This document shows positions 1 to 24,341 of a stretch of 44,541 nt of DNA, in pieces. The DNA lies in the IMG/VR virus record IMGVR_UViG_2162886007_000060, positions 1 to 44,541 of that record. One strand, written 5' to 3'. The first letter of the stretch is position 1, and each line of letters opens with the position of its first letter. This DNA is from a virus. The translations under genes and the position numbers were made by a program. The notes under the pieces are model-generated. The model searched no databases and had not been told where the DNA came from. It saw only the letters and a list, made by a program, of their open reading frames with translations.

Positions 1-275
1 CCTTTAGGCCCTTTCTTGGGTTTTTCAGGGAATAGCTGTTCTCCATCACCTCTTGACTTGCCTCTATGTACGTCTGATCCAGTTTCTCCCTCTCCCTCAG
101 ACTGCGGAAGTCTATGCCCATCACCCTCTCCCTGTTGTTGCTCTAACGGCAACTCTTGCTGTTGTGACTGTCCTTCATCACCACCCTGCTCACCTTCAGG
201 TGTAGTGGGTTGTTGATCTTGAATGCCAAAGCTGTTGCCAACTGCATCCATCAGGTCTTCTTGTTCTTTAGGCAT
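1..275 (-). CDS. Scaffolding protein, N-terminal part (runs off the left edge)
   Basis: The ATG at 275-273 follows a strong AGGAGG ribosome site and opens a Gln/Glu/Gly-rich, acidic, low-complexity reading frame with no stop up to position 1 (91 full codons). It lies 30 bp after the portal stop, exactly where a scaffold gene is expected. The frame that enters at the right edge (44541 to 43765) supplies the missing alpha-helical C-terminal part just ahead of the capsid gene, so I infer one gene cut by the window ends. Joining the two edges directly puts them one base out of frame, so at least one base is missing at the cut. Scaffold proteins guide procapsid assembly and are not kept in the virion. 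The role is inferred from position and composition. Confidence 0.7.
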   Translation of the reverse strand, partial: MPKEQEDLMDAVGNSFGIQDQQPTTPEGEQGGDEGQSQQQELPLEQQQGEGDGHRLPQSEGEGETGSDVHRGKSRGDGEQLFPEKPKKGPK

Positions 276-305
276 TGTAGCCTCCTATGCTGCACACGCT
301 GTGCA

Positions 306-2618
306 CTAAGCCGCAGCACCTTGCTGCATTTGTTGTATCAACTGTGATGCTATGTCAGCAACACTACGACCGCGAGCGAGTTGTACGCCGAGATGTTGTT
401 TCATTTCAGGCGGTAGACCGTCGATTAGGCGAGCTACCTCCTGTACGATTGATGCAATGTCGTCAATCTGTGGTCCACCTGCACCACTAGCACTACCACC
501 GCCTTGACCACCACCAGCACCTTGCGGAGCGCCTTGTTGTCCTTGTTGTGCAGCCATCGCACGCTCATGCATACGCTGCATCATGGCTTCTTTACCCTGC
601 GCGTCCTGTTGTTGTGCTTGTTCTTCACCGGGAGCAGGTCCACTTGTCTCTTTGATGATGCCTTTGTAGATTAGCTCCCAATCTGTCTGACTTATGACAG
701 CATTATCGAACGCTGTTGCTAGAACTTTGAGTGCAACTACCGCTGCAATGGGTGTCGCACGAGTGAACTGACCGATGATCTGCGAAATTTGCAGTGCTTG
801 CTCCTTTTTCGCCCTAGAAGTAGGTTTGAGAGTGCTACCACCCACAACACGAGGCGTGAATGTCGTCCGAATTGAATTTGCATCCATCTTCTCCCAAGTT
901 GACGCCATTTCATCACCGAGTAGTGTTGCAACTTCCTCTTTTTCCATGAATTGCAAGCACATTTGTGCTACTAGCCACAACACTGTTCCAACACTATCCT
1001 CGATAGCGTCCATCTTCTCATCTGCACGTGTCTGTGTTTGACTTTCGTAGCTCTCTATTGCTCTGTTGGTGGTGTTTGTCTTGTATTCGACGCCTCGCTG
1101 AACACTCGTGACACCGGAGAGGCGGTCAATGGCCTCAAGAACAGGCTTCTTGTCAAAGAATTTGATGGCGTCGGCACTAGGTGGTAGTAATGGGCCGAGT
1201 ACATCACCGAGCTTCTTGCCCTCTGGCAAATCCAAGCCGATTGTATTACTATCGAGTGTGCCAGAGATAAGACTTTCGAGTACGTCTGCGCTCTTGAGTG
1301 CGTTCTTGTCATATGCTACCTTACCTGCAGCGAAGCGACGTACTTTAGACCACTCATTGTTGATGATGTTTATGTCATCTTGCTGGTCTAGATAGTAGGT
1401 AACTTCGCCCTTCGCGTACATAGTGATTGGATCAGTGTGGAACTCCATTGGCACCACACTAAAGAACTGGTCAAGTGAATAAGGATCATCCCATACCCAC
1501 AGAGGATAGCACCAGTCATTGCAGTTGTATAGTTCAACTCGTCTTGTGACCTTATCCCATACATAGCACACCTTTGTCATCTGTGCTGCGAGGAAGCTGC
1601 GTTGGTCGCTGTAGCCGTACTTGGCATATTCGCTAGTGCTGTAGCTGAATAGCTGGAAGTTGTCTGTCTGACCACGTTCGCCTTGATCTGGACTGACACC
1701 AGCTTTGATGACGTTGGTAGGACTAAAGACGCTCTCCCACTCATCGCTGTTAGGCTTCTTGCGTCCGTACTTAGCACGCAGTAGTGATGTGTACATCAAG
1801 TCTTCAATCATGACCCAATTACACGTGCCACTAAGGTCTAAGTCGGTAGCTGTTGGATCGACTATTACTTGGTCTGGACGGCGTACTTTCACCCACGGAC
1901 CACTAGGTGTGAGCATGTCAATGGTTTCTTCCAACGCTAGCAGCTTGCCTTCGCACTCCTTAATGTCCTTCTGCGACTTGGCTTGCTCTAGCTCAGCACT
2001 GAGTTTCTTGACTTCCTCTAGTGCTGCTTCACTGCTCTGCTCACGTAGTGTGTAGCCGCACTCGAACCAGCCTACATTAGTCAACGTAGTGCTGACGATG
2101 TTGCGCTTCACTTTACGCTTGAGGTTCAGTCCCGGTGATGTTTTCTTAGCAGCGAGTACGTTGACTAGTTTCTCTAGAGTGCGCTGCTTCGGCTCGTCTG
2201 CTTTGTCTTCACTAGTAAACTCGGCCTCCGGGTTTTTAGTGAATAGCATAGGAACGAGAGCGCTGACGTTCGCAAATACCAAGTTCTCAGTGCTGTCAAA
2301 CGTACCTTGGAGGGGTTTACCGGCTGTACTATCTTCCTCAGTTCGTGATGGAGCATTAGTACGGGTATGGTCATGTCTGTAGTACCTATACGCCTCCGAC
2401 CATGCATCTGTGTTCTTGCTCATTGCAGACTTGCCCTGATCGTAGCGCGAACGCCACAACGGGCCACGGTGTTTAGAGACAGGTATCTTGCTTTCACCTA
2501 TGACACGATACATAGGCTGGTCATCTACTACAGCATTAGGATCGGCTGTGACACCTTCATAGGTGTTGTAGTCGGTAGCAGGTTCCGCGGGCGGAGGATT
2601 GCCGTAGTCGTCAGCCAT
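306..2618 (-). CDS. Portal protein
   Basis: This 770-residue protein lies between the large terminase and the scaffold, the standard place for the portal (head-tail connector). The portal forms the dodecameric ring through which DNA is packaged and ejected. Its length fits podovirus portals. A charged coiled-coil stretch falls near residues 200-230, a conserved-looking helix-rich core follows, and the C-terminal 80 or so residues are Gln/Gly/Ala-rich, as in the crown or barrel of many portals. Its ATG overlaps the stop of the 63-residue upstream gene (TAATG), which implies translational coupling. The call rests on context, length and overall character rather than on a catalytic motif. Confidence 0.85.
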   Translation of the reverse strand: MADDYGNPPPAEPATDYNTYEGVTADPNAVVDDQPMYRVIGESKIPVSKHRGPLWRSRYDQGKSAMSKNTDAWSEAYRYYRHDHTRTNAPSRTEEDSTAGKPLQGTFDSTENLVFANVSALVPMLFTKNPEAEFTSEDKADEPKQRTLEKLVNVLAAKKTSPGLNLKRKVKRNIVSTTLTNVGWFECGYTLREQSSEAALEEVKKLSAELEQAKSQKDIKECEGKLLALEETIDMLTPSGPWVKVRRPDQVIVDPTATDLDLSGTCNWVMIEDLMYTSLLRAKYGRKKPNSDEWESVFSPTNVIKAGVSPDQGERGQTDNFQLFSYSTSEYAKYGYSDQRSFLAAQMTKVCYVWDKVTRRVELYNCNDWCYPLWVWDDPYSLDQFFSVVPMEFHTDPITMYAKGEVTYYLDQQDDINIINNEWSKVRRFAAGKVAYDKNALKSADVLESLISGTLDSNTIGLDLPEGKKLGDVLGPLLPPSADAIKFFDKKPVLEAIDRLSGVTSVQRGVEYKTNTTNRAIESYESQTQTRADEKMDAIEDSVGTVLWLVAQMCLQFMEKEEVATLLGDEMASTWEKMDANSIRTTFTPRVVGGSTLKPTSRAKKEQALQISQIIGQFTRATPIAAVVALKVLATAFDNAVISQTDWELIYKGIIKETSGPAPGEEQAQQQDAQGKEAMMQRMHERAMAAQQGQQGAPQGAGGGQGGGSASGAGGPQIDDIASIVQEVARLIDGLPPEMKQHLGVQLARGRSVADIASQLIQQMQQGAAA

Positions 2619-12285: not shown

Positions 12286-12519
12286 ATGGCAGACAGAGAG
12301 AACATCTGGCTACAGCCGGGAACACGTGCACACATGCTTGTCTACAAAGACGGCAAGTGGCAAGTGTGGACTAGCACCAACTCGCGCAGTGGTGATAGTG
12401 ATTTGTGGTGTGGTACTTACATGGAACTACACCCCAATGGAATGTGTATACAGTGTACACGTACTGAAGCGTATGTGAACAACATCGTAGTAAGACCAGC
12501 AACAGGGGATGCAACATGA
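12286..12519 (+). CDS. Small protein, unknown
   Basis: I choose ATG 12286, one base after the preceding stop, giving 77 residues; the longer frame from 12163 lies over the upstream gene and would begin with an odd hydrophobic stretch. The product is beta-rich (LVYKDGKWQVWTS) with Cys residues near its centre, and it carries a one-mismatch dyad copy (12447) in its coding sequence. Its stop overlaps the next start. Confidence 0.6.
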   Translation: MADRENIWLQPGTRAHMLVYKDGKWQVWTSTNSRSGDSDLWCGTYMELHPNGMCIQCTRTEAYVNNIVVRPATGDAT

Positions 12520-12929
12520 CTAACAACGGTGGTAAGCCTTTGGTAGATCAACTACACGAACAAGCTGCACGCGGTGTAGAGGCTATCCAGTTGATAGTAA
12601 CTGAACGCGATGACCTACGCCTACAATCAGATCGTATGAGCGCTGAACTCGCACTCATACGCGAGCGCAACAATCAACTAGAGAGCCGTCTTAAAACGGC
12701 AACAGTCGAGCGTGACCACTACATGCGTCACGCTGTTGAGTTAGTGAGTAGACTTAACAACATTCAGTTGTTGATAGTGAGTGCAGTAGAGGAAGCAGGT
12801 AGAGTAGCCTATCGACCATCGCTTGTAGGCAAGGCACGAGAGCATGAGACAGTAACTAGTGAAGATGTTAAAGCTATTGAAGGCATCTTGAAGCGCCTAC
12901 CACAGAACAATGGGGATACAACACAATGA
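12516..12929 (+). CDS. Coiled-coil protein
   Basis: The 137-residue product is coupled to both neighbours by ATGA overlaps. Residues 10-85 form an almost continuous charged heptad-like helix (Glu/Arg/Leu/Gln-rich), followed by a short basic link and a C-terminal helix. It is probably a dimerising or scaffolding factor. I recognise no family. Its position directly ahead of the GHKL-like ATPase gene raises the possibility that it works with that protein. Confidence 0.7.
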   Translation: MTNNGGKPLVDQLHEQAARGVEAIQLIVTERDDLRLQSDRMSAELALIRERNNQLESRLKTATVERDHYMRHAVELVSRLNNIQLLIVSAVEEAGRVAYRPSLVGKAREHETVTSEDVKAIEGILKRLPQNNGDTTQ

Positions 12930-14173
12930 CTAAAGCTATATGCTTCTACAACGATGGCACTCTAGATCACCGTGCATTCACCATGCTCGGCTTGAGTGCT
13001 AAGTCAGATGACAAAGCCATAGGCTTCTTCGGCACTGGCTTCAAGTACGCTATCGCTACACTCCTACGCTGTGGCTGTGATATAACTGTACACGTGCACG
13101 ACAAACATGGTGAGTTCGATGAGTACAAGTTCTTCTCTGTGCAAGGCCACTTCCGTGACAAAGAGGTGGAGTTCATCTACTACAACGATGGCAAGAGTGA
13201 CCACGAACTGCCATTCACTACACACTTGGGTGCCAACTGGAAGCTGTGGCAAGCCTATCGTGAGCTATACACCAACGCGCTCGATGAAGGTGGTGGTGTA
13301 GAGCTAGTTGACGACATACATTGCTTCAACCCTGCCATTGGCGACGTATGTGTGTACGTCATGGGTGATGAGTTTATACGTGTATATGAGCAGCGTGCCA
13401 AGTACTTCTTGAAGGCTGAACCACTCGCTGCATCCTTCCGTATGCGTTGCGTTGAGAAGATAGCCGATAGTGACAACGTTGTATACTACAAGACCATGTA
13501 CACCGGCACTAAGTTGGACAAGCCTACTCACTTCACTTACGACTACACAACCACAGTAGAGCTAACTGAGGATAGAACTATAGGCGATACATGGTCACTA
13601 CGCCATCACATCAGCCACCTGTGGCTAGAGCACATGAGCTATGACTTCCTTATTCAACACCTACCAGCTATAGCCAATGAGAAGATGTACGAGAACCAAC
13701 TCTCTGCAGACTACTGCACACCTAGCGATGACTTCAATCGTGCGTGTGCTTATCTCAATCAGCACCACCGCTCGATGCCACTATGGGCGCGTGATGCATA
13801 CAACCGTAGTCGCCCATTCGATGAACAAGTTGAGCACTTCAAGCCTAACAGGTGGCAGCGTACTCAACTCAAACGTGCCATTGCTATCCTACACTACAAC
13901 GGGAGCATGATTGACCCTGCTACTATAACCACGTGCGCTTCTCTACCCGAAGACGTTATAGGCTTGTACAAGAACGGCACAATCTACATCACTAAGGAAG
14001 CGTTCGAGCGTGGCTTCTTAGCACTACTCGGCACGTTGTATGAAGAATACACACACCTAACTACTGGCTACGAAGATGGCACTAATCGGCTGCAGAACTT
14101 GCTAGTAGATAAAGTAGCCAACCTGATGCAGCAAGTCTATGAGATGGACAAGGAAACTGAGGGGAGTGAATGA
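12926..14173 (+). CDS. GHKL-like ATPase with permuted motifs and degenerate peptidase-like tail
   Basis: Near the N-terminus (about residues 9-43) the protein reads YNDGTLD, GLSAKSDDK and IGFFGTGFKYAIA. This matches the consecutive G1, SxK and G2 boxes of Hsp90/MutL/MORC-type ATPases. The N-box-like RELYTNALDEGGG comes later (about 112-124), although in normal GHKL proteins it comes first; the order suggests a circular permutation. The last 50 residues hold LYEEYTHLTTGYED (about 371-384), which resembles a metallopeptidase HExxH with the first His replaced by Glu. The gene is ATGA-coupled on both sides. ATP binding is a reasonable inference; the substrate and role (host takeover, counter-defence, DNA handling) are unknown. 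Confidence 0.65.
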   Translation: MTKAICFYNDGTLDHRAFTMLGLSAKSDDKAIGFFGTGFKYAIATLLRCGCDITVHVHDKHGEFDEYKFFSVQGHFRDKEVEFIYYNDGKSDHELPFTTHLGANWKLWQAYRELYTNALDEGGGVELVDDIHCFNPAIGDVCVYVMGDEFIRVYEQRAKYFLKAEPLAASFRMRCVEKIADSDNVVYYKTMYTGTKLDKPTHFTYDYTTTVELTEDRTIGDTWSLRHHISHLWLEHMSYDFLIQHLPAIANEKMYENQLSADYCTPSDDFNRACAYLNQHHRSMPLWARDAYNRSRPFDEQVEHFKPNRWQRTQLKRAIAILHYNGSMIDPATITTCASLPEDVIGLYKNGTIYITKEAFERGFLALLGTLYEEYTHLTTGYEDGTNRLQNLLVDKVANLMQQVYEMDKETEGSE

Positions 14174-14576: not shown

Positions 14577-14803
14577 ACAGTGAAGAACGCAGATACCAAC
14601 GCAAAGATAGACGAACTGCTACTAGTAAACCACAGCTAGAGCATCGCCACTATGCTGTCATTGCGTATGTGATAAAGAACTTCATCGCTACAGACATACG
14701 TGAGGACGTAGCACAGGTGTTTGGTCGTGAACTCAAGCACACCAACCCTAAGTTCGACCGACGCCGCTTCCTTATAGCGTGTGGAGTAGTACGTGATGAC
14801 TAA
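14570..14803 (+). CDS. Small basic helical protein
   Basis: I prefer ATG 14570 (77 residues), which follows GGAGGG at good spacing and overlaps the stop of the membrane protein by a few bases; a start at 14546 is less likely. The product is Arg-rich and helical, ending NPKFDRRRFLIACGVVRDD. A tail of this form, with an FDRxRFLxAC core, is common in short uncharacterised phage proteins. Function unknown. Confidence 0.65.
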   Translation: MLDSEERRYQRKDRRTATSKPQLEHRHYAVIAYVIKNFIATDIREDVAQVFGRELKHTNPKFDRRRFLIACGVVRDD

Positions 14804-15518
14804 AGACAAAGTGCCGCAGCACGTTAAAGATCAGCGTGCTGCGGCTGCTGCTGGTAGAACTGTTGGCAAACGCACCAAGCAACTACGCCACCACCGTGAG
14901 CGTAGTGAGAGCTATGACGTATTCCGTCGCATCAACATGCACAATGGTGACAAAGACGTATGTTGGGAATGGCTCGGCGCTCACGGCACAGGCACACGCG
15001 GTGAAGTACGTCCGCGTGTGTGTATCGACAAGCGTCACTACTACGTCTACCGTGTAGTCTACGAGCTTTATACAGGGTATAAGCTGCAGGAGCGGGAAGT
15101 TGTCCGCCATGCGTGCGACAATTCGTGGTGCTGCAACCCATACCACATGTTGATAGGCTCACAAGCTGACAATGTAGATGACATGCTGCAACGCGAACGC
15201 GTAGGTCTGAAGCACTACCAAATCCGTCGCATCATGCAAGCGTTGGAAGTCGGTTGCACCGCTACTGATGTGTGTGTGATGATGAAACAGGGCTACAACC
15301 TATCACTAGACGAAAGCGTGGTGCGCAAAATCCGTATGCGTGTGATCTACAAGCACATTGACTGGCCGTGGGGTGATGCCTATGCCAACTTGCGCAAGCG
15401 TAGATTGGCAGAGTTGAGAAATCAACGACTTGCATCTGATCCTAAATCTGCTATAATAAGTGATAGTCAACAAGGAGCTACAACACATGGCGAAGAAAAG
15501 GAACGTAAAGATGACTAG
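14796..15518 (+). CDS. HNH endonuclease (free-standing)
   Basis: The 240-residue protein has a basic, Ala/Arg-rich N-terminal arm (to residue 40), then CWEWLGAHGTG (56-66) and a beta-hairpin, then VVRHACDNSWCCNPYHMLIG (102-121). The last carries the His (105), the Asn (114) and the terminal His (117) of the HNH active site. It continues with SQADNVDDM, as in HNH_3-type nucleases, and a C-terminal helical DNA-binding region. These enzymes nick or cut DNA and are often mobile in phages. The ATG at 14796 overlaps the preceding gene. The last 30 codons contain promoter 15430-15457 and look compositionally different, so the C-terminus may have been extended by insertion. Confidence 0.85.
   Translation: MTKDKVPQHVKDQRAAAAAGRTVGKRTKQLRHHRERSESYDVFRRINMHNGDKDVCWEWLGAHGTGTRGEVRPRVCIDKRHYYVYRVVYELYTGYKLQEREVVRHACDNSWCCNPYHMLIGSQADNVDDMLQRERVGLKHYQIRRIMQALEVGCTATDVCVMMKQGYNLSLDESVVRKIRMRVIYKHIDWPWGDAYANLRKRRLAELRNQRLASDPKSAIISDSQQGATTHGEEKERKDD
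15430..15457 (+). promoter_or_regulatory. Early promoter 4, inside the HNH gene end
   Basis: TTGCAT (15430-15435), a 16-bp spacer and a perfect TATAAT (15452-15457) with an extended TGC. It is 30 bp upstream of the ATG at 15487 and lies within the 3' end of the HNH coding sequence. Confidence 0.75.
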
Positions 15519-20469: not shown

Positions 20470-21819
20470 ATGGATTTAGACGTTGAACAACAACGTGCAG
20501 TTGACATGTGCACGGACTACACAAAGCGCCTAGTGGCAGTAACAGGTGAAGCTGGCACAGGCAAAACAACAATCATCAAGAACACCTGTGACATACTCTC
20601 AGAACATGCTGGCGGTGGCAACTTCACCATCGCCGCTCCCACCGGCAAAGCTGCTCGCCGCATACGTGAAGCTACTGGCTATCCAGCACAGACTATTCAC
20701 AAGTTGCTAGAGTTTAACAGGCCAGATGTAGATGAAGAAACAGGTGAAGCTACATCTGTCAGTCAGCCTAGCCGAACACGACACCATCCACTCGATCAAC
20801 GCATCATCATCGTAGACGAATATGCAATGGTCAGTACAGGACTGCATCGTGATCTTGTTAGTGCTATTCCTTCTGGCGGTTGTCTACGCGTGTTTGGCGA
20901 TGTACGGCAGCTACCCCCTATAGAGAACAATGACCTAGCTGATCCTACCTCTCCATTCCAACGCTGCTTGGAGATGCCCAACACCTTCACGCTACAAAAC
21001 ATCTACCGCCAAGCCGAAGGCAACGGTATCATCGAAGCTGCGCGGCGCATAACTCGCGGCCAGTTCTTTGGTAGCAATCCTGACGTAGAGATACGACTGC
21101 ACGACGCTGTACTACACAGTCTCTACACCAAGCTCGACGACGACAAGTCAATCGACTGGTGTAGTCTTGACAATCAAATCATATCACCAGCGCGCAAGTC
21201 TGACATAGGTACTATCAGGTTGAACAGCATACTGCAAGCACGCTTCAATCCTGAGATGCCCGGTAAGACAGAACTACCGCGCAACAAGTGGGAGGCTAAG
21301 AACCGTGTCTTTGTATCAATCGGTGACAAGGTTGTATGCAACACCAACAGCTACGATCTACGTGATTATAGCGAGCGTTTCGCTGAGTACGACGCTAATG
21401 GCGTTGGCCTCATTGGCAGCTTTATCCCATGCCCTGATACGAAGCAAATGCTCAATGGTGAAGTCGGACGCATTCTCAACATTGATGAGTATGGTGTCCT
21501 AGAGATTGACTTCGGTGATCGTGTGGTAGAGCTACCACCACGCATCAACGACTACAACATGCGCAAGCGCTTTCACTACCACTACGACCCTCGCAAGGCG
21601 ATTGAGTTAGCATATGCACTCACGACACACAAATGTCAGGGGAGCCAGTATGATAACATCATCTACTGCATGGCTAGTTGTGCGTTCTTTAATCTTAGCC
21701 GTCCTAACTTCTACACTGGTATTACTCGTGCTGCTAAGCACGCAACCATTCTAACAGATCAACGCAGCTTCGCCACATCGCTCAAGTCGATGGGCTGGAA
21801 ACGGAAGAAGACCACATGA
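20470..21819 (+). CDS. SF1 helicase, RecD/Dda type
   Basis: The 449-residue protein has Walker A GEAGTGKTT (26-34), motif Ia APTGKAARRI (56-65), motif II IIIVDEYAMV (112-121), motif III GDVRQLPP (143-150), motif V near ALTTHKCQGSQYDNIIY and motif VI YTGITRAAKHATIL near the end. This complete set fits a RecD2/Dda-like 5'-3' DNA helicase with the UvrD_C_2-type C-terminus. It probably unwinds DNA for phage replication or recombination. Its stop overlaps the polymerase ATG (ATGA), so the two are made together. Its length is close to that of phage Dda. Confidence 0.9.
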   Translation: MDLDVEQQRAVDMCTDYTKRLVAVTGEAGTGKTTIIKNTCDILSEHAGGGNFTIAAPTGKAARRIREATGYPAQTIHKLLEFNRPDVDEETGEATSVSQPSRTRHHPLDQRIIIVDEYAMVSTGLHRDLVSAIPSGGCLRVFGDVRQLPPIENNDLADPTSPFQRCLEMPNTFTLQNIYRQAEGNGIIEAARRITRGQFFGSNPDVEIRLHDAVLHSLYTKLDDDKSIDWCSLDNQIISPARKSDIGTIRLNSILQARFNPEMPGKTELPRNKWEAKNRVFVSIGDKVVCNTNSYDLRDYSERFAEYDANGVGLIGSFIPCPDTKQMLNGEVGRILNIDEYGVLEIDFGDRVVELPPRINDYNMRKRFHYHYDPRKAIELAYALTTHKCQGSQYDNIIYCMASCAFFNLSRPNFYTGITRAAKHATILTDQRSFATSLKSMGWKRKKTT

Positions 21820-24341
21820 TGAACACGGCTGAACTGAAAGAGCGCTTCACATTGCAAGCGCAGACTGCAGGCTTGCAAGTAGAATGTGCAATGGGCGGCA
21901 CTATGAACGCCACTCTCGCTATAATAGCAGAAGCTCCCGGTCGCAATGAGATAGCTCAGGGCATTCCACTAGTAGGAGGTGCTGGCAACATACTGTGGAA
22001 GGCGATCAAGACACACTGCCCTGAGATCAAGCGTCATGAGTGCTACATCACCAACGTAGTCAAGCGTCAAGTCGCCTTCGACACTGACATTAATCGCAAG
22101 CCTGTAGGCAAGCATGAGCTAACAGCGTGGCAGGAGCTATTGTTGTGGGAGTTGGCTATGTTGCCTAACCTACAACACGTACTCCTGCTAGGCAACTTCG
22201 CTGTTGAAGCACTCACTGGCAAGAAAGGAATAACCAACTGGCGTGGTAGCATCATCGAGTGCAACTTGTCCAATCGCAAGCTGACTGCAGTGTGCACCTA
22301 CAATCCTGCCTTCTGTGCACGTGACCCAATGGCGCACATCGTGTTCGACATGGACATAGGCGACAAACTACGACCAGTTGTGTTAGGGAGATACAAGCAG
22401 CATGACGTATCGGTGCAGATCAATCCCACCTACAAGCAAGCACTTGAGTACATTCGTCATTGTCAAACCTCACCTAATCCAATCGCGTCGGATATTGAAG
22501 TCATCGGTAACGAGACAGCTTGCGTGGGCCTTGCAGCCTCACCGTATGAAGCCACTTGTATCGCATTTCGCAACGAGGAAACAAACTTATACAGTGTACA
22601 AGAAGAACACGAAATTCGTCGCCGTCTGCAACGACTTTACTCTACGCCAACTGTACGTGTGGTGTGGCAGAACGGCGGGTTCGATATGGCGTGGTTATGG
22701 TTTAAGGATCGGATACGCTGCAGGCCCGCATACAGCGACACGATGCTTGGTCATCATGTTCTATATCCCACAATGCCACACGATCTTGGCTTCATCGTTA
22801 AACAGTACACCACACACCCGTTCTATAAGAACGAGAAAGACGAGTGGCGACATACAGGTGGTATTGACAACTTCTGGATATATAACGGTAAAGACTGTGC
22901 ACTCACACTTGCGTCGAACGCTCACATCATTGCGGAGTTGCGTGAGCAGAAGCTAGACAAGTTCTACTTTGAACACGTGATGCGCTTGCAAGCTCATCTA
23001 GTGCTAATGACCGTAGGTGGTGTGTTGAATGACATGCCGCTGCGTGCTCGCATGCTTGACGAGAACACACCCGGCAATCTGTACAGTGATCTACAGCGTA
23101 AGCTGGCAGACTTCTACGCAGCGTGTCGTGAGGCAGTTGGTGACTACAACTACACACCAAATCCCAACAGCCCGAAGCAGATGGCAGAGTTGTATTTCAG
23201 TAAGTTGAAGCTAGTAGGCAGAGGCACTAGCACCGATGCTACCAACCGTGAGTTGATGCGTAAGCATCCACGCACAACACAAGCTGCACGTAAAGTCCTC
23301 GATGCAGTTGATAGCTACATCGAGGATGATAAGTTCTACAGTGTATATGCGTCAGCCAAGCCTGATAGCGATAGTAGGATGCGCTGCGACTACAGGCAGA
23401 CCGGAGTACGTTCTGCGCCGGGGCGTCTTAGTAGTGCGCAAACACTGTGGGGCAGCGGCGGCAATCTGCAGAATATCCCCGACCGCGCGAAGGAGATGTT
23501 TATAGCTGATCCCGATTGCTGCTTCATCTACATTGATGGCTCTCAAGCGGAGGCTCGCGTCGTCGGCTGGCGATATAACATCGCAACGTGGATCGACCAG
23601 TTTGAGAGGGCTAGGCGTGACGGCAGCTACGACTGTCATCGCGCCCTCGCCAGTGACATGTTCAATGTACCGTACAACGAAGTTCCGACCTTCGACCGCT
23701 ACCCCTTGGATGAAGTTGCCGCGAAGCGTGATGGCATCGCATACAACGCGGACATGGCGGGGAAGCCCACAATCCGCTACATTGCCAAGCGTTGTCGTCA
23801 TGGTCTTAACTACCGTATGATGCCTGACCGTCTAGCTCTAACAACAGGCTTGTCACTATCAACAGCAAGTGAGGCGTTTGTCAAGTACCACAAGTTGACA
23901 CCTGAGTTGAAGCTAGGATGGCAAGCCGATCTGAACCGAGTACGCGGCGAGCGTGCTATCTATAACGCCTACGGACGGCGATACGTTCAATTAATTCCAG
24001 TGACCGAGGAAAGCACCGAGGCGATAGTCGCCTTCTACCCACAGTCCACTATAGGCGACCACATCTGCCGCGTCATATATAAGTGTCACGACGACGACAA
24101 ATGGCCCAAGGGCAAGGCCAGAATAGCACTCAACACTCACGATGGGCTGATAGGTCTAGCGCGGAAGGACGTAGCCAAGCAGGCACTACGTGTGATGGTC
24201 AAACACGCCGAAGCACCAATACTGATAGGCGGCAAACAACTCATCATCCCTGCCGAGTGCGGCATTAGTGTGCCGGGAGATGATGGTGTACATAGGTGGT
24301 CAACGATCAAGAAGATCAAACAAGCGGAGCTTATGCACTAG
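21816..24341 (+). CDS. Uracil-DNA glycosylase - DNA polymerase A fusion
   Basis: 841 residues. Residues 33-175 resemble a UDG-superfamily domain: IIAEAPGRNE (36-45), PLVGGAG (51-57), YITN (77-80), LLLGNFAV and TYNPAF (161-166). Next comes a 3'-5' exonuclease: SDIEVIG (Asp226, Glu228), QNGGFDMAWL (285-294), and YNGKD (356-360). The polymerase has motif A YIDGSQAEAR (Asp574), motif B RYIAKRCRHGLNY (654-666) and motif C NTHDGLIG (Asp776). Odd features: His662 occupies the O-helix position that is Phe in E. coli Pol I and Tyr in T7. Motif C has Gly777 where Pol I has Glu. The glycosylase may excise uracil ahead of the polymerase. The gene ends 3 bp before the convergent late arm. Confidence 0.9.
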   Translation: MMNTAELKERFTLQAQTAGLQVECAMGGTMNATLAIIAEAPGRNEIAQGIPLVGGAGNILWKAIKTHCPEIKRHECYITNVVKRQVAFDTDINRKPVGKHELTAWQELLLWELAMLPNLQHVLLLGNFAVEALTGKKGITNWRGSIIECNLSNRKLTAVCTYNPAFCARDPMAHIVFDMDIGDKLRPVVLGRYKQHDVSVQINPTYKQALEYIRHCQTSPNPIASDIEVIGNETACVGLAASPYEATCIAFRNEETNLYSVQEEHEIRRRLQRLYSTPTVRVVWQNGGFDMAWLWFKDRIRCRPAYSDTMLGHHVLYPTMPHDLGFIVKQYTTHPFYKNEKDEWRHTGGIDNFWIYNGKDCALTLASNAHIIAELREQKLDKFYFEHVMRLQAHLVLMTVGGVLNDMPLRARMLDENTPGNLYSDLQRKLADFYAACREAVGDYNYTPNPNSPKQMAELYFSKLKLVGRGTSTDATNRELMRKHPRTTQAARKVLDAVDSYIEDDKFYSVYASAKPDSDSRMRCDYRQTGVRSAPGRLSSAQTLWGSGGNLQNIPDRAKEMFIADPDCCFIYIDGSQAEARVVGWRYNIATWIDQFERARRDGSYDCHRALASDMFNVPYNEVPTFDRYPLDEVAAKRDGIAYNADMAGKPTIRYIAKRCRHGLNYRMMPDRLALTTGLSLSTASEAFVKYHKLTPELKLGWQADLNRVRGERAIYNAYGRRYVQLIPVTEESTEAIVAFYPQSTIGDHICRVIYKCHDDDKWPKGKARIALNTHDGLIGLARKDVAKQALRVMVKHAEAPILIGGKQLIIPAECGISVPGDDGVHRWSTIKKIKQAELMH

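Follow-up and report, generated by a model that had tools for sequence, protein, structure and literature searches.

GHKL ATPases are recognized by a motif order, N-G1-G2, that is taken to be fixed. The locus analyzed here raises the question of how to understand a phage protein in which these motifs appear in the order G1, G2, N-box and are followed by a C-terminal end reminiscent of a metallopeptidase. The window, i.e., the entire 44.5-kb virus record under study, contains genes for terminase, portal, tail, a RecD-like helicase and a UDG-DNA polymerase A protein, the last of which (21816-24341, + strand) is a single 841-aa ORF with a uracil-DNA glycosylase domain (family 4-like) ahead of a family A DNA polymerase. 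The ORF encoding the protein of interest starts with an ATG that overlaps the stop codon of the gene before it. A sequence-only reading of this DNA had delimited the ORF and seen in its product a permuted GHKL ATPase; the boundaries proved exact, and the product belongs to a conserved family, phrog_8203. Its features are as follows:

12926..14173, + strand: 415-aa protein with putative permuted GHKL ATPase, transducer-like and zincin-like parts; phrog_8203, homolog of Yuavirus gp29
12935..13186, + strand: first part of the GHKL domain (residues 4-87), with G1 strand, lid, G2 helix and the next strands; corresponds to residues 44-123 of the sister family
12950..12967, + strand: G1-like motif NDGTLD (residues 9-14), with Asn instead of the adenine-contacting Asp
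12989..13015, + strand: lid with GLSAKSDDK (residues 22-30) and its SxK motif; G22 and K26 in 60 of 60 sequences; low pLDDT
13019..13051, + strand: G2 motif IGFFGTGFKYA (residues 32-42); G33, F35, G36, T37, G38 and K40 in 60 of 60
13199..13309, + strand: relocated block of strand, N-box helix and strand (residues 92-128), from the AF2 model; matches residues 3-37 of the sister family in hhalign
13262..13294, + strand: N-box ELYTNALDEGG (residues 113-123); E113, N117, D120, E121 and G123 in 60 of 60
13343..13591, + strand: Hsp90-middle/transducer-like domain (residues ~140-222), collinear with the sister up to its residue 246
13562..13579, + strand: LTEDRT (residues 213-218) with R217, in 60 of 60; an Arg is likewise invariant in the LxRDR motif of the sister
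13841..14131, + strand: zincin-like C-terminal domain (residues 306-402), from VIA-align and from hhalign to HExxH relatives
14042..14095, + strand: altered metal-site motif E373-E374-x-x-H377...D384...Q390, all five residues identical in 56 of 60

The phrog_8203 profile covers residues 3-404 of the window protein (E 3e-66) and thus constitutes a full-length match. By tblastn, 72 phage records in GenBank contain homologs, and in 66 the match covers 80% or more of the query; the homologs include Yuavirus gp29, and the hosts are Pseudomonas, Bordetella, Stenotrophomonas and Synechococcus. In IMG/VR, a pattern scan identified 303 stretches carrying the family pattern. The GenBank labels mostly read 'hypothetical', still so for the homolog in phage Lydia (described in 2025), with 'HATPase' in Epa38 and Ssp-JY42 and 'hydrolase, metallopeptidase' in AN14. 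The gene AN14_29 (L020 4597-4962), adjoining the Yuavirus homolog, is labeled 'putative hydrolase, metallopeptidase' in GenBank; a peptidase motif was sought in its sequence and none is present, and the label is probably a mis-annotation. A putative split homolog in Escherichia phage ERS-1 (PP337211.1, L100) was rejected as belonging to an error-laden record, which resembles a Yuavirus-like genome riddled with frame errors and whose annotated host may be wrong.

The coiled-coil protein encoded immediately upstream (12516-12929), which had been suggested as a partner, has homologs at position -1 in just five examined loci, all of them close relatives, and is therefore not a general partner; across the loci examined, no operon partner is conserved beyond such close relatives. 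Downstream of the ATPase gene lies a gene for an HNH-type endonuclease (14793-15518, + strand), with relatives in 12 examined loci. Elsewhere in the window, a secreted-type phage protein (9873-10685, + strand) carries a VPLPA-CTERM sorting signal (TIGR03370, 28.3 bits against a cut-off of 25.35), which suggests a host with an exosortase system.

Conservation was scored in a 60-sequence alignment whose members range down to 26% identity and mostly share ~30% with the window protein. The G1, SxK and G2 motifs and the N-box all lie where they had been placed, at residues 9-43 and 113-123, and their key positions are conserved in 56 to 60 of the 60 sequences. Invariant throughout are the listed lid, G2 and N-box residues, together with R112 and R217, such that the N-box conforms to ExxxNxxD (E113, N117, D120) and G2 to GxxGxG (G33, G36, G38). 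G1 deviates from the pattern: the window family has NxGx(I/L) in place of the DxGxG found in a normally ordered cellular relative, with Asn (N9) at the position of the Asp in 56 sequences and Thr in four, G11 retained in 58, and the second Gly replaced by Ile, Leu or Phe. Because of these two substitutions, nucleotide binding is not assured. Nothing relevant to this protein was found in Pfam, phmmer and hmmsearch returned no match among PDB sequences, and the sacsin-type domain NF047352 reached 19.8 bits, well below its cut-off of 50, over residues 4-40 only, its matches being similarly weak in all ten scanned family members.

The unusual order of G1, G2 and N-box is explained by circular permutation. 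Since hhalign comparisons with small HtpG or MutL profiles from bacterial genomes gave scores of 25-28, too weak to decide, a closer sister family was needed. Residues 10-61 of the window protein match phrog_6077 (E 3e-15), whose members match phrog_8203 in return. This family, from Vequintavirinae and other phages, includes proteins labeled 'RIIA lysis inhibitor' in PAKlein3 and 'HATPase' in Vibrio phage VPMS1. It shares with the window family the G1-lid-G2 block, the transducer-like domain with a conserved Arg and an N-box with W-x-x-W/Q-x-x-R-E-L, but here, in the classical GHKL arrangement, the N-box (in one member YVSHWSWWQGARELMQNAID) comes first, followed by G1-SxK-G2 and the transducer-like domain with LxRDR, and most members have no recognizable C-terminal zincin motif. 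Profile alignment of the two families places residues 10-246 of ours on residues 50-246 of the sister (E 5e-16); a second match, out of order, places residues 92-126 on residues 3-37 (E 1e-6), and the two cannot be collinear. When the 135-column domain of the sister was rotated in 3-column steps and the local profile score recorded, a rotation just after the N-box raised the score from 77.2 in the native order to 123.5 (E 3e-13 to 9e-22); the plateau was confined to cut points from sister residue 33 to residue 57, in the stretch that separates the N-box from G1/lid.

A FastTree analysis covered 120 proteins over 170 columns, with the blocks set in a common order. The 69 permuted and 51 normal proteins are divided exactly by one branch (support 0.976, one Fitch change), so that the permutation, as far as the aligned sequences tell, probably arose once. 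Among the permuted proteins are two from huge phages (LR756500, LR756511) and those of a clade of large uncultivated phages (L239-L256). A protein with two N-boxes, as expected for a duplication intermediate, was looked for and none was seen.

Predicted structures point in the same direction. The AF2 model of the window protein (mean pLDDT 93.1, pTM 0.80) comprises GHKL-like, Hsp90-middle/transducer-like and zincin-like C-terminal domains, and its sole long weak stretch is the lid, as expected for a mobile element. The first part of its GHKL domain consists of E4-10, H16-19, H37-48, E52-58, E64-76 and E79-87. When compared with a model of the sister member L216 (mean pLDDT 74.8; residues 1-150 mostly >79), the ATPase-domain elements agree in order, except that [E3-9, H18-31, E35-41] of the sister corresponds to [E92-98, H107-120, E124-128] of ours. 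In VIA-align, the alignment of the sister with GyrB, MutL and Hsp90 begins at the sister's own start (Z 9-10). Relatives with the normal order, both cellular and phage, match HATPase_c_3/HATPase_c, and the cellular match exceeds the Pfam cut-off. The comparison of the model of the window protein with Hsp90, proposed as a check by the sequence-only reading, gave a divided answer: the order of elements fits a permuted Bergerat fold, but the alignment of residues 1..294 with Hsp90 80..453, which extends into the middle domain, reached a Z of ~6, a value that alone is within the chance range. Its start at about Hsp90 residue 80 only is what a sequential aligner would produce on meeting a permuted domain, and for the same reason the lack of a Foldseek match to the PDB at E<0.001 is as expected. 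Taken together, the rotation test, the normal-order sister, the element order and the PDB matches support the conclusion that the GHKL domain of the window protein is circularly permuted. Homology and element order further suggest that the N-box helix packs in cis into the pocket.

The C-terminal domain has a recognizable ancestry of its own. Residues 306-402 align in VIA-align with 3e11, 4jiu, 4qhf and 5ln5 at Z 6.4-7.2, and the top rows of the PDB list for this domain are mostly zincin-like metallopeptidases (3e11: Z 7.2, rmsd 2.7, 84 residues; also abylysin, selecase and Wss1). Hhalign with HExxH relatives places EEYTH on HExxH and D384 on a conserved Asp (E 7.7e-10, 1.1e-7), which bears out the earlier suggestion that EEYTH (373-377) is an HExxH motif that lost its first His; being fixed as EExxH in 56 of 60 sequences, it is not decaying. 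An intact HExxH is retained by the normal-order relatives L216, L224, L229, L236 (Moorella phage), L237 (Exiguobacterium phage) and L234 (bacterial), and also by the permuted large-phage clade (IIHEYDHYSTGITD..REFR). The proteins of this clade (L239-L258), from large uncultivated phages, combine a permuted GHKL domain with a HEYDH zincin and an extra C-terminal stretch, for a length of ~540-565 aa. On sequence grounds, the C-terminal domain of the window protein descends from an HExxH zincin, and the first His appears to have been replaced early by a residue now under constraint, given that EExxH...D...Q is fixed in its clade. Both a re-liganded metal site and a substrate-binding site fit this pattern.

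We consider it likely that the window protein belongs with Hsp90, sacsin and MutL as a conformational machine powered by ATP, built from three parts that include a permuted GHKL domain and a zincin-like end. The block of strand, N-box helix and strand that normally opens the GHKL domain sits after the G1-lid-G2 half, and both halves would refold into one ATP pocket. There, N117 would hold Mg and E113 activate water, while K26 of the lid and R217 of the transducer-like domain would contact the gamma-phosphate; by analogy, R217 is proposed as a candidate catalytic arginine equivalent to Hsp90 Arg380 (PMC9880540). Closure and reopening of the lid, driven by ATP, may then move the zincin-like domain, which would serve as a substrate-holding or metal-altered module rather than a standard HExxH protease, its target during infection probably being a protein of the host or of the phage. 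Its ATPase activity, any metal binding and its biological role are all predictions. Because motif order, the residue at the G1 Asp position and the EExxH motif all depart from the family definitions, the most fitting description is that of a protein which works like the GHKL and zincin families and descends from them.

Other readings need to be weighed against this one. Coincidence, with GHKL-like motifs arising in an unrelated fold, could explain the empty Pfam and Foldseek results, but it is most improbable and already refuted at the sequence level by the invariance of the motif residues; the two hhalign matches to phrog_6077, the similarity of the phrog_6077 model to GyrB, MutL and Hsp90 and the HATPase_c_3 matches of relatives speak against it as well. 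A more specific objection is that the N-box block could act in trans, its transposition serving dimerization through a domain-swapped dimer instead of refolding in cis. Hsp90 and MutL do dimerize via N-terminal elements, yet the AF2 monomer is confident over the block (pLDDT ~88-97 per 10-residue bin) and the flanking strands have moved with the helix, as a permutation in cis predicts, so that we regard a swap as quite unlikely.

Two further alternatives concern the chemistry of the two putative active sites. The altered G1 would suit a pseudo-ATPase that keeps the fold as a scaffold and neither binds nor hydrolyzes nucleotide. We doubt this, since the catalytic Glu, the Mg-binding Asn, the N-box Asp, the G2 glycines, the lid Lys and the transducer Arg are all invariant, and since sacsin, with the same Asn and Lys, has been argued to bind ATP (PMC9880540). 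As for the C-terminal domain, it could have metallopeptidase activity, with Glu373 taking the place of the first zinc-binding His: E373, E374, H377 and D384 are fixed as in no decaying site, and the label of the AN14 homolog agrees. However, none of the examined members of the window protein's clade has HExxH, and Q390 stands where some HExxH relatives keep a Glu, leaving peptidase activity a minor possibility. The preferred reading thus remains that of an ATP-driven machine with an altered zincin-like end.

Cellular relatives provide hints as to its setting. Proteins labeled 'ATP-binding protein' (L234/G168, Croceicoccus, Salinibacter, Natrinema) share the layout of GHKL, transducer-like and zincin domains, and their HExxH...GxxDxTREFE aligns with EExxH...GxxDxTRxMQ of the window family, whereas L234 differs in that its motifs follow the normal order and both DxGxG and HExxH are complete. 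They occur in bacteria and haloarchaea, on plasmids and chromosomes (L234 on G168 contig C274; L265, L266, L268), but are rare (3 of 398 genomes). In Salinibacter, a type I restriction operon has the gene between S and R; in Natrinema, a single gene separates it from a Piwi gene; in Croceicoccus, it lies near CoiA/SbcCD/SMC genes, and in the bacterial genome G168 beside a gene for an AAA ATPase that looks OLD-like by eye. A role in conflict biology is plausible from this handful of neighborhoods, which are anecdotes without statistical control, and the cellular GHKL-transducer-HExxH proteins are a possible uncharacterized defense component. Weak PADLOC matches to TmtA (E 0.049 for the window protein, 2e-4 for the sister) are given no weight. 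Counter-defense would be the likeliest setting of the phage clade, a guess that we hold with little confidence. It is tempting to go further and speculate that a natural permuted GHKL domain, with a topology undescribed for the class of Hsp90, MutL, gyrase and histidine kinases, arose once in a phage clade that is a counter-defense derivative of a cellular defense ATPase-peptidase, its ancestor being a GHKL-transducer-zincin protein that cells also encode on plasmids, next to genes for restriction, Argonaute and SbcCD; this combined scenario is tentative and rather improbable as a whole.

The family is a widespread, unstudied phage protein that joins a permuted GHKL domain to an altered metalloprotease-like end, a layout that we could not find described for the GHKL class. 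Our search of the open-access literature found no permuted GHKL or Bergerat ATPase; the claim of novelty is limited to this search, which does not prove absence. Annotation tools miss such a member because they take the motif order as fixed, as seen here from the empty Pfam result and the many 'hypothetical' records. A natural permutation reveals which connections of the Bergerat fold can be cut, and it makes it possible to test directly how elements at the N-terminus link ATP to dimerization and output in Hsp90-like machines. Yuavirus gp29, from phages grown on P. aeruginosa PAO1, is a tractable target for such work as a conserved protein of unknown function.

Among known systems, the SprT-like/minigluzincin metallopeptidases (3e11, abylysin, selecase, Wss1) resemble the window protein in the fold of residues 306-402 and differ in having HExxH where it has EExxH. 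The phage protein T4 rIIA is not known to be permuted. It has an N-terminal GHKL ATPase domain (PMC7824862) and thus shares with the window protein a phage origin and a domain of this type; no rIIA PHROG or Pfam family was among the profile matches. Close parallels are found in sacsin SR1 and the Hsp90 N-terminal domain, with an N-box of the form ExxxN..D, a G2 motif and, in the domain that follows, a catalytic Arg. Sacsin, in particular, has an Asn in place of the G1 Asp and a lid with Ser178 and Lys180, the Lys being predicted to contact the gamma-phosphate (PMC9880540), so that N9, S24/K26 and R217 would be the equivalents of its Asn, Ser-x-Lys and catalytic Arg. What sets the window protein apart from sacsin and Hsp90, both of which keep the order N-G1-G2 and are without a zincin domain, is the combination of a permuted ATPase domain with a zincin-like end.
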